A DNA stretch of 64,000 nt, from assembly GCA_947565425.1 (NCBI GenBank), contig CANOFW010000001.1, positions 1 through 64,000 of the forward strand. Reading direction: 5' to 3'. Numbering within the stretch: position 1 is the first letter of the stretch; each line of letters starts with the position of its first letter. This document shows, in pieces, positions 19,678-52,736 of the stretch. The notes under the pieces are model-generated. The model did no database searches and had not been told where the DNA came from. It saw nothing but the letters and a program-made list of their open reading frames with translations. The translations under genes and the position numbers were made by a program. This DNA comes from an uncultured Lachnospiraceae bacterium (GTDB lineage: Bacteria; Bacillota; Clostridia; Lachnospirales; Lachnospiraceae).

Positions 19678-19708
19678 AAAATAGTTCCTTTCTGCCCTAA
19701 TCGAACAA

Positions 19709-19737
19709 AGTATAACAGATTTATTTTTCTTTCTCAA
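19709..19737 (-). promoter_or_regulatory. Sigma-A promoter for tgt
   Basis: Minus strand TTGAGA (19737-19732), 17-base spacer, TATACT (19714-19709), about 32 bases before the tgt start. Confidence 0.6.
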
Positions 19738-19777
19738 GCAAAAACTTCTTTTCATTGCGGCTGATATTGTCTATAAT

Positions 19778-19968
19778 GGGGGTGTCGCACAAATTTATTT
19801 CCTCGTTCAAAAGGTCTTGCCGCTCATGCGGCAAAGACAGAATGCACAAAAATCACTCTGGGAAGCTAGCTTTCCAAGATAATTTTTGTGCATGTTGTTT
19901 ACATTGCTATGCAATGTAAACCTTTTGAATGAATCATAGCTTGTAACTTATGTTAGTGCGACATCCCC
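19778..19968. repeat. Cloverleaf palindromic element, fullest copy of the GGGG(N)TGTCGCAC family
   Basis: The outer stem GGGGGTGTCGCAC (19778-19790) pairs with GTGCGACATCCCC (19956-19968) with one G-T wobble. The inner closing stem TTCAAAAGGT (19806-19815) pairs with ACCTTTTGAA (19920-19929). Inside it are three arms: TTGCCGC-TCAT-GCGGCAA (19817-19834); ATGCACAAAAAT (19842-19853) with ATTTTTGTGCAT (19882-19893), itself capped by a smaller hairpin; and GTTTACATTGC-TAT-GCAATGTAAAC (19897-19921). It lies in the intergenic gap between tgt and aroC, with no coding capacity. Confidence 0.85.
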
Positions 19969-19970
19969 TG

Positions 19971-20106
19971 GTGATTTTTGCATGAAAGTTCGCTTCGCGA
20001 AGCAAAAATCACTTATTGTATCATGTTCTTACGCAACCAGACAACAAGTGTCTGGCTGCTGTGTGAACAGTAACCTATCATGTTACTGTTCAAAGGGATA
20101 ATCCCT
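19971..20106 (+). promoter_or_regulatory. Chain of four hairpins in the aroC leader
   Basis: Directly after the cloverleaf element come GTGATTTTTGC/GCAAAAATCAC (19971-20012, enclosing TTCGCGAA), CCAGACA/TGTCTGG (20037-20055), GAACAGTAAC/GTTACTGTTC (20065-20091) and AGGGAT/ATCCCT (20094-20106). None has a long T-run. I see no convincing promoter or known riboswitch. The stretch 19738-20141 is otherwise without genes. Confidence 0.6.
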
Positions 20107-20141
20107 TACCAAGTAAAATGTAAAAATTTAAGGAGGTCTTT

Positions 20142-21284
20142 ATGGCTGGCTCAACATATGGAAAACATTTTCAGATTACAACCTGGGGAGAATCCCATGG
20201 AAAAGGAATCGGCGTTGTCGTAGACGGCTGCCCGGCAGGACTTGCTCTGTGCGAATCTGATATACAGAAATTTTTAGACAGGCGCAAACCTGGCAAGTCC
20301 AGATATTCCACTCAACGCAAAGAAGGTGATAAGGTAGAGATTCTTTCCGGCGTCTTTGAAGGACGAACAACCGGAACCCCCATCAGCCTGGTAATTTTCA
20401 ACGAAGATCAGCGTTCCAGAGACTATGGTGACATTGCCTCTTACTATCGTCCGGGACATGCAGACTACACATTTGACGCGAAATATGGATTTCGGGACTA
20501 CCGGGGCGGCGGACGTTCCTCTGGTAGAGAAACAATAGGACGAGTTGCCGGAGGCGCTATCGCCGTAAAAATATTAAATGAACTGGGCATTTCTTTGCTG
20601 ACATACGCTCGCTCCATCGGAACAATTACCATCCCACAGAACGCAAATGACTTGTTGGCCGCTTGCAGGCAAAACAACACCTACTGTCTGCAAGAAATAG
20701 AAACACGCGTTCTGCAAGACCCCCTGTATATGCCGGATAGAGATTCCTCTCAACAAGCCCAGGAATATTTAGAAACATGTATGGAACAAATGGATTCTGC
20801 TGGTGGAATCGTGGAAGGAATTGTCACCGGCGTCCCGGCAGGTATCGGAGAACCTGTATTTGACAAACTTGACGCCAACCTTGCAAAAGCAATCTTTTCT
20901 ATTGGTGCAGTCAAAGGTTTTGAGATTGGCGACGGTTTCGCGGCTGCGGCTGCCAAAGGCACTGAAAACAATGATAATTTCTGCATGAATAACGAACAGG
21001 TTACCACTGCCACCAACCATGCCGGTGGCATTTTCGGCGGTATCAGCAGCGGTGCTCCCATCATTTTACGTGCCGCATTTAAACCTACCCCCTCTATCGC
21101 CGCCACACAGCAAACGGTCAATACATCTGGCAAAGAAATTTCTATTTCCATTCATGGTCGCCATGACCCAATTATCGTACCGCGTGCCGTAGTGGTAGTG
21201 GAATGTATGACTGCACTTACAATCTTGGATTTGCTGTTAGAACATACCGGAGCACGAATGGATATTTTGAAAAAACTCTATTGA
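20142..21284 (+). CDS. aroC: Chorismate synthase
   Basis: A 380-residue FMN-dependent enzyme that makes chorismate from EPSP, the last shared step of aromatic amino acid synthesis. The N-terminus GSTYGKHFQITTWGESHG, the motif RGGGRSSGRETIGRVAGGA near residue 125 and the C-terminal GRHDPIIVPRAVVVVE are family signatures. The ATG at 20142 follows AAGGAGGTCTTT. It stands alone on the plus strand between minus-strand tgt and the surface protein gene, with no other shikimate genes nearby. Confidence 0.97.
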   Translation: MAGSTYGKHFQITTWGESHGKGIGVVVDGCPAGLALCESDIQKFLDRRKPGKSRYSTQRKEGDKVEILSGVFEGRTTGTPISLVIFNEDQRSRDYGDIASYYRPGHADYTFDAKYGFRDYRGGGRSSGRETIGRVAGGAIAVKILNELGISLLTYARSIGTITIPQNANDLLAACRQNNTYCLQEIETRVLQDPLYMPDRDSSQQAQEYLETCMEQMDSAGGIVEGIVTGVPAGIGEPVFDKLDANLAKAIFSIGAVKGFEIGDGFAAAAAKGTENNDNFCMNNEQVTTATNHAGGIFGGISSGAPIILRAAFKPTPSIAATQQTVNTSGKEISISIHGRHDPIIVPRAVVVVECMTALTILDLLLEHTGARMDILKKLY

Positions 21285-21308
21285 TACAGAACAAAGTGTG
21301 CATAATTG

Positions 21309-21377
21309 TTTTTGTCTTATTAGGAAAGATACTTTCACGCTTTAGCGTGACAATGTCTTTCCTATAAGACGAAAAAA
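21309..21377. repeat. Long hairpin with a TTTCACGCTTTAGCGTGA tip
   Basis: The base of the stem is TTTTTGTCTTAT with ATAAGACGAAAAA. The middle pairs GGAAAGA with TCTTTCC. The tip is TCACGC-TTTA-GCGTGA (21335-21350). It starts 25 bases after the aroC stop and could act as its terminator, though no clean T-run follows. The tip and 3' half resemble 63912-63955 at the window end, so this may be a second repeat family. Confidence 0.6.
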
Positions 21378-21452
21378 GGGGCTGTTGCACTCATTTAGCT
21401 ACTCGAGCAAAAGGTCTTGCCGCTTATGCGGCAATGTTCGTGCGACAACCCC
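21378..21452. repeat. Shortened copy of the cloverleaf element, probable two-way terminator
   Basis: Outer arms GGGGCTGTTGCAC (21378-21390) and GTGCGACAACCCC (21440-21452) enclose CTCGAGCAAAAGGTC and the arm TTGCCGC-TTAT-GCGGCAA (21417-21434). Relative to the copy at 19778 it has lost two arms and one side of the inner stem. It is flanked by AAAAAA on the left and GCTTTTT on the right, so it can end both aroC and the facing surface protein gene. Confidence 0.75.
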
Positions 21453-31067: not shown

Positions 31068-31094
31068 GAGACGCTTTGGTGTTATAGCTTCAAT

Positions 31095-31243
31095 CAAAAG
31101 GTTTACATTGCAAAACAATGTAAACAGCATGCACAAAAATTATCTTGGGGTTGTCGCACTAACATAAATTACAAGTTATAATTCGTTCAAAAGGTTTGCA
31201 TTCTGTCTTTGCCGCATAAGCGGCAAGACCTTTTGAACGAGTA
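31095..31243. repeat. Mosaic, rearranged copy of the cloverleaf element
   Basis: On the minus strand the order is TTCAAAAGG, arm TTGCCGC/GCGGCAA (31209-31226), GACAGAATGCA, CCTTTTGAA, then the outer 3' arm ending GTGCGACAACCCC (31147-31159). This is followed by a second partial unit with AAGATAATTTTTGTGCATG and the arm GTTTACATTG/CAATGTAAAC (31101-31125) and another CCTTTTGA. Every piece matches the copy at 19778 but in a different arrangement. It occupies most of the gap between mtaB and ireB. Confidence 0.8.
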
Positions 31244-31275
31244 AATATCCTAATTCTGGTATAAGATTATGAAAT

Positions 31276-52686: not shown

Positions 52687-52736
52687 GGGGGTGTCGCACT
52701 AACATAACTTGTAATTTATGTTAGTACGACACCCCC
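52687..52736. repeat. Minimal palindromic copy of the GGGGGTGTCGCAC element
   Basis: GGGGGTGTCGCACTAACATA(A) (52687-52707) pairs with its complement (52716-52736) over 21 bases with one mismatch and an 8-base loop. No T-run flanks it on either side, so it is not a typical terminator. It sits between the TM2 gene and the zinc-ribbon gene. Confidence 0.85.

Follow-up and report, generated by a model that had tools for sequence, protein, structure and literature searches.

IS1272 and TnSha1 are the closest described systems; the reports cited here describe hairpins as their targets, with whole or partial loss of the target stem-loop and no target duplication (PMC4923244; PMC5678879). In Methanosarcina acetivorans, two IS1182-related MITEs of 160 and 169 bp are listed with ISMac2, and their direct repeats are given as 4 and 0 bp, the order of the columns being read from the other rows of the table (PMC3852290). 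The pneumococcal repeats BOX, RUP and SPRITE are short, cluster with one another and insert into each other, with terminator-like sequences in SPRITE (PMC10969869; PMC3049150). REPs are described as palindromes of 20–40 bp (PMC3733652).

We analysed a stretch of 64,000 nucleotides from an uncultured Lachnospiraceae bacterium (the window), in which a 191-bp cloverleaf palindrome occupies positions 19778–19968. Comparison of its ends, copies and junctions leads us to conclude that it is probably a non-autonomous MITE, mobilised in trans by a DDE transposase of the IS1182 family that recognises GGGGCTGTCGCAC ends, and that stem-loops chosen by their shape are the targets it replaces. A preliminary description had proposed a MITE- or REP-like mobile palindrome hosting other palindromes. 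This was right in kind, as regards the MITE, and wrong in the likeness to REPs, from which the element differs in size and ends. REPs are likewise repeated extragenic palindromes; the MITE here measures 191 bp and has IS1182-type ends. In length it does not fit the REP/REPIN class, in which palindromes are 20–40 nt long, although reduced hairpins of 40–50 bp occur. That description also overlooked the partner IS, one end of which lies at bases 1–55 of the window, and the apparent entry by stem-loop replacement.

The home element and its copies

The home element (19778–19968, plus strand) consists of an outer stem that encloses an inner stem with three arms. With 10 bases of flank included on either side, it folded at –89.2 kcal/mol compared to –47.3 (sd 4.1) in shuffled sequences, and none of 200 shuffles was as stable (z = –10.2); its coordinates and 13-bp outer stem were as first described. 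The element is bounded by GGGGGTGTCGCAC / GTGCGACATCCCC. Its terminal inverted repeats, recognised by the end pattern, form the outer stem: GGGGGTGTCGCAC on the left (19778–19790, plus strand), for which the family consensus, GGGGCTGTCGCACTAA, is that of the IS left end, and GGGGATGTCGCAC on the right, read on the minus strand (19956–19968). The core cloverleaf (19806–19929, plus strand) is closed by the inner stem TTCAAAAGGT/ACCTTTTGAA, made of 19806–19815 and 19920–19929. Within it, sequence and fold give arm 1 (TTGCCGC-TCAT-GCGGCAA, 19817–19834) and arm 2, a long hairpin (TGCACAAAAA..TTTTTGTGCA, 19843–19893) whose apex, here GGGAAGCTAGCTTTCC, spans 19860–19875. Arm 3 is the hairpin TTTACATTGC-TAT-GCAATGTAAA at 19898–19920, and all of these parts lie on the plus strand.

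A TATAAT box, the element and then a gene follow one another at this locus; from its first residues, we take the gene to be that of chorismate synthase. Directly after the element, a palindromic stretch of ~106 bp extends over 19968–20073, and two copies of it with 94–95% identity occur in G024 among the matches listed. Hairpins with ends of the GTTAC-NGTTCA type lie near the same gene in the window (20064–20092), in G028 (L136) and in G020 (L155), and G028 carries a large branched structure with ends of this type after the same TATAAT box.

When the genome was searched with a 209-base query, 21 places (the query's own included) matched with an identity of 85% or higher over 160 bases or more; many others listed were shorter or had diverged further. 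The end pattern GGGGNTGTYGCAC occurred 43 times in the genome, the reversed pattern not once. Pairwise identity among the 16 own full-length copies was 82–100%, reaching 100% between different loci. The family of five copies first proposed is therefore real but greatly understated, with 21 near full-length places, 43 occurrences of the end pattern and dozens of copies in the genome. Copies had been said to lie always between genes, and indeed none of the 30 own-genome copies checked fell inside an ORF of at least 90 aa as delimited by a simple ORF caller.

The sequences pointed out elsewhere in the window are all present, but that at 1–55 is an end of the partner IS and not a copy of the MITE. 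The copy at 21378–21452 (plus strand) is internally deleted to 75 bp and lies between CGAAAAAA and TGCTTTTTC. Sequence and genome search showed that at 31089–31247 (minus strand) to be rearranged and nested, a second partial copy joining arm 2 at TTATCTT/GGGG, and the sequence at 52687–52736 (plus strand) is a 50-bp hairpin derivative with both terminal repeats. Positions 21295–21377 hold an 83-bp hairpin repeat (TTTTTGTCTTAT..TCACGCTTTAGCGTGA..ATAAGACGAAAAA), for which the matches listed across the genus number dozens. At L005 and L009, GGGG elements are hosted or flanked by a further long palindromic repeat, which lies around TTCCATAGAACTTTTATA and ACAGCCTTATTCCATAGAA.

Among the matches listed, the element was found in 14 of 29 genomes of the same genus, its own included; in two of these, G019 and G021, the best of the matches listed covers the core only and may belong to the second family described below. 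An exact 38-base core pattern was found in 14 stretches of named records (seven in Lachnospiraceae bacterium A2, six in bacterium 3-1 and one in an uncultured Lachnospiraceae MAG), a search that may omit records near the element's own genome.

Element ends, a probable partner IS and a second family

The MITE ends, GGGGCTGTCGCAC, share 16 identical bases with the left end of a complete IS (consensus GGGGCTGTCGCACTAA). The right end of the IS has only the first 11 bases in common with the MITE end, and each IS end is itself a small inverted repeat. This IS of ~1.9 kb is complete in G003 and G004, with a length of 1888 bp in A2 (G003) and 1897 bp in two G004 copies, and in A2 a DUF772 transposase lies ~260 bp inside a GGGGCTGTCGCAC end. 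The 540-aa transposase belongs to the IS1182 family (NCBIfam NF033551, 303.8 bits with a cut-off of 270) and contains the domains PF13751, PF05598 and PF01609.

Bases 1–55 of the window (minus strand) are the terminal 55 bp of this IS, cut by the contig start and identical at 54 of 55 positions to IS bases 1–55 in A2. Two other contigs of the same genome are also cut within the IS, C14 at position 51 and C15 at 52; three contigs in all break at 51–55, and the IS is seen in this genome as end fragments only, at those three breaks. The draft contained no match to the transposase protein, to PF05598 or to PF13751. We believe that the gene is missing from the draft likely because the repeat collapsed during assembly. 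Near the end of G000:C14 (L122), a GGGG element end lies 37 bp upstream of the IS end in the same orientation, and the IS looks as if it had inserted into a small copy of the MITE family.

Over the 29 genomes, protein matches to the transposase at E 1e-30 or better occurred in 13. Among the matches listed, element and transposase coincided in 7 genomes compared to 6.3 expected by chance (5.4 if the core-only genomes G019 and G021 are excluded), and 7 of the 14 element-bearing genomes were without a transposase match. Co-occurrence this close to chance lends no support to the partnership from that side. The element is short (191 bp), non-coding and multi-copy, has 13-bp terminal inverted repeats and is missing from relatives at the same site (from G024 at the home site, and at the L086 and L025 sites), as a MITE would be. 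On these features and its ends, we read the home element as an IS1182-family MITE.

A second cloverleaf family has different ends, TTTGAGTTTCCCC, and a core homologous to that of the GGGG MITE. Its loci are L110–L121, L232–L244 and L250–L255, and in G016 its ends gave 84 matches with at most one mismatch among the matches listed. Two 1.5-kb spans in G003 (L230, L231) were considered as an autonomous partner with TTTGAG ends and rejected, as both consist of N runs at assembly gaps. Of 200 genomes sampled from the bacterial family, 4 were matched by a covariance model of the core, two within the genus and two beyond it, with one of the latter a weak match. G084, from another genus, has seven free-standing cores without GGGG or TTTGAG arms, one of them internally deleted; the closing stem of each is either CAAAAGG/CCTTTTG or CCATAGGG/CCCTATGG.

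Stem-loops at the junctions

The loci examined included 52 elements with two GGGG ends. At ten loci a parent cloverleaf, from one family or the other, enclosed the element on both sides, and five further elements matched a parent on one side only. At 8 of the 10 nested loci the lost parental stretch was symmetrically bracketed by paired bases, with a shift of 3 or less; when breakpoint pairs were drawn at random, 0.6% reached the same symmetric bracketing. The targets were of four kinds. At L002, L233, L234 and L240 the parent had lost 25 nt, exactly arm 3 in the form it takes in the second family; the apex of arm 2 (16 nt) was gone at L010 and L023, the entire inner cloverleaf (130 nt) at L232 and the branched interior (110 nt) at L091 (the same locus as L235). 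The two exceptions were L237, a few bases off, and L006, which was asymmetric. The children at L233 and L234 are 97.9% identical and the parents 89.1%, and these two loci may descend from one event, so that the eight loci may represent seven events.

We also tried 12 orthologous sites, 11 with a MITE and one with the IS. Three (two MITE, one IS) were clean or nearly so. The MITE of strain 3-1 at L086 lies between GATAGAAAAA and CCTTTTTTTAAAAT, clean on both sides; of the five relatives compared there, four (G009, G007, G001 and G017) show a terminator-like hairpin, while different hairpins occupy the site in G003. The IS in G004 (L173) lies cleanly between GAATGAA and TTTGTTC, with the same type of junction as the MITE. 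At this site G017 and G022 carry the hairpin GAATGAAAAGAGCCGCCC..GGGCGGTTCTTTT (its left part also given as AAAAGAGCCGCCC), G007 carries another hairpin, and strain 3-1 has a different hairpin element with GGGGCTGTGGC ends. The third site, L025, holds a MITE of the home genome whose right end abuts TTTTT cleanly and whose left end may keep a relic of the stem; six of the seven relatives compared have a hairpin there and G027 has none. With the nested copies, the signature of a stem-loop lost on entry was present at 8 of 10 nested loci and 3 of 12 orthologous sites. The hairpin element of strain 3-1 at the terminator site that holds the IS in G004 is L216 (G002:C22:251540-252240), its ends also being given as GGGGCTGTGGCAAAAT.

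At the home site, 19778, G024 is without the element, so that an empty site exists in a relative, and no clear hairpin is present at the junction. The remaining eight sites gave no decisive junction. G024 has its own hairpins at 21378, several relatives have hairpins at L014, and other hairpins occur in relatives at L038 and L066; none of these junctions could be aligned. The left flank is not conserved at L003, and 52687 is conserved on one side only. The genes on either side of L015 are separated in G019 by a terminator-like hairpin, the junction not being base-aligned, and at L029 the flanks were located. A 150-bp flank beside the L029 element is 99% identical in G028:C35:5087-5329 and G000:C18:59895-60137, which belong to two different species, possibly reflecting recent transfer or contamination.

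Palindromes might also undergo homologous recombination, or switch templates with one another during replication, and so give junctions at the bases of stem-loops with no transposase involved. The chimeras L236 and L249, in which both families are joined in the common CAAAAGG/CCTTTTG stem, and the reduced forms L245–L248 agree with such events and point to recombination and internal deletion within the group. As the source of the junctions this route appears unlikely to us, since L086 and the G004 IS site each hold a full element where relatives have an unrelated terminator-like hairpin, with only short tracts in common, and since it is a complete IS that has the MITE-type junction in G004.

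Covariation, flanks and comparison with known systems

Conservation extends to the core cloverleaf as a whole. Across 19 aligned cores of both families 97.2% of cells pair, compared to 38–51% in slid controls. Between the families, two-sided changes were present in all five core helices, in 76 cells compared to 27.8 in shuffled alignments (0 of 500 as high). Counts of pairs showing two-sided changes (13 versus 11.5 in shuffles; 62 of 500 as high) and of further pair types (29 versus 31.9) were not raised in the 19-core alignment. In a set of 29 full-length GGGG elements, two-sided changes affected 8 of 55 pairs, and the covariation term was ~0 (–0.05). None of the outcomes that the preliminary description had named as refuting it was obtained, since copies number dozens, the stems show two-sided changes and one relative is empty at the home site.

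The two-sided changes, the conservation of the core in another genus and the position of the home element between a TATAAT box and a gene would all suit a transcribed cloverleaf selected for an RNA function, its spread being secondary. We rejected such a structured RNA as the main explanation, and consider it very unlikely, because the copies show no bias in orientation or context. Of 30 copies checked for gene context 29 were classified, with 16 in tandem, 7 in convergent and 6 in divergent gaps compared to 10, 5 and 4 in the background, no more convergent than the latter; among the 16 tandem-gap copies, 10 run along the genes' direction and 6 against it. The unraised pair and pair-type counts also argue against selection for RNA, as does the lack of the element upstream of the same gene in G024. 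No Rfam match reached the gathering score in the 64-kb window, and 19700–20150 gave three weak matches far below it. DNA hairpins can keep their pairing through template-switch correction, so the covariation needs no RNA, and beyond covariation the RNA alternative of the preliminary description found no support.

The flanks were compared in 32 non-nested elements, left from 49 rows after nested-copy loci and seven partial or overlapping calls were dropped; the list of 52 elements used shorter flanks than this set. None of the 32 had a target duplication of at least 3 bases, and 2-base flanking repeats were present at 6 compared to 3.25 expected. The fraction of A on the left was 0.54 in the adjacent 6 nt versus 0.34 at 25–40, and that of T on the right 0.48 in the adjacent 6 nt versus 0.29 further out. 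Left and right flanks were not significantly complementary, 771 of 5000 permutations scoring as high. The missing duplication does not exclude an IS1182-family MITE, since IS1272 makes none either. Simple insertion of an ordinary MITE that prefers AT-rich intergenic sites or hairpins is a very unlikely reading, for although the A- and T-rich flanks alone fit a preference for composition and the relative has no visible hairpin at the home site, simple insertion would keep the target stem-loop, which is gone at 8 of 10 nested loci, and usually duplicates its target, which no copy of the 32 has done to 3 bases or more.

In the reading we prefer, an IS1182-family DDE transposase would recognise the GGGGCTGTCGCAC ends and mobilise the MITE in trans, choosing its target by shape and not by sequence, probably in the state of an extruded cruciform. 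A DNA stem-loop that forms an intrinsic terminator, or belongs to a resident cloverleaf as one of its arms, would be excised at or near its base, and the MITE, itself one large hairpin, would fill the vacated place with no target duplication; we infer that replacement proceeds as for IS1272. At terminators the A-tract and T-tract of the host would remain, so the new GGGG..CCCC hairpin with its T's may still terminate. Because each copy carries several stem-loops, later copies could use those of earlier ones as targets and produce the nested structures, and internal deletions would yield hairpins of 40–85 bp.

More tentatively, the core may be an older, distinct mobile unit that was coated at least twice by unrelated ends (the IS1182-type GGGGCTGTCGCAC and TTTGAGTTTCCCC) and is coatless in another genus, in a group evolving by hairpin-for-hairpin swaps at the level of apex, arm, whole cloverleaf and host terminator. 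If this were true, transposon evolution would be recursive here, with secondary structure as both target and cargo, and terminators would have been rewired genus-wide, a hairpin being left behind each time.

In the open-licence literature searched, neither a MITE that replaces stem-loops nor an element of this kind from Lachnospiraceae came up. Like BOX, RUP and SPRITE as these are described, the copies are short chromosomal repeats that are clustered and mutually inserted. The partner and ends of BOX, RUP and SPRITE differ from those of this MITE. Hairpin-for-hairpin replacement does not feature in what the cited account relates of those repeats (PMC10969869). The ISMac2 MITEs resemble ours in being short and ascribed to an IS1182-family partner, and the part of the account that concerns them describes neither a cloverleaf nor stem-loop replacement (PMC3852290).

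The likeness to IS1272 and TnSha1, as far as the cited reports describe them, extends to the transposase family (IS1182), to hairpin targets that include terminators, to deletion of the stem-loop and to the lack of both a duplication and a target consensus. Those two, one an autonomous IS and the other a composite transposon, belong to staphylococci, whereas the MITE here is 40–191 bp long, non-coding and from Lachnospiraceae. The replacement signature of the staphylococcal IS1272 now appears in a MITE of this group, whose nested copies form a built-in record of replaced stem-loops and a natural data set on how a DDE transposase recognises DNA shape. This would account for nested cloverleaf repeats that resemble structured RNAs, and suggests an exchange of terminators for mobile hairpins in these genomes. 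Unlike IS1272 and TnSha1 as reported, the MITE is itself a nested hairpin found replacing arms of its own kind; this is what is new here, together with a core that recurs in a second family and stands alone in another genus.
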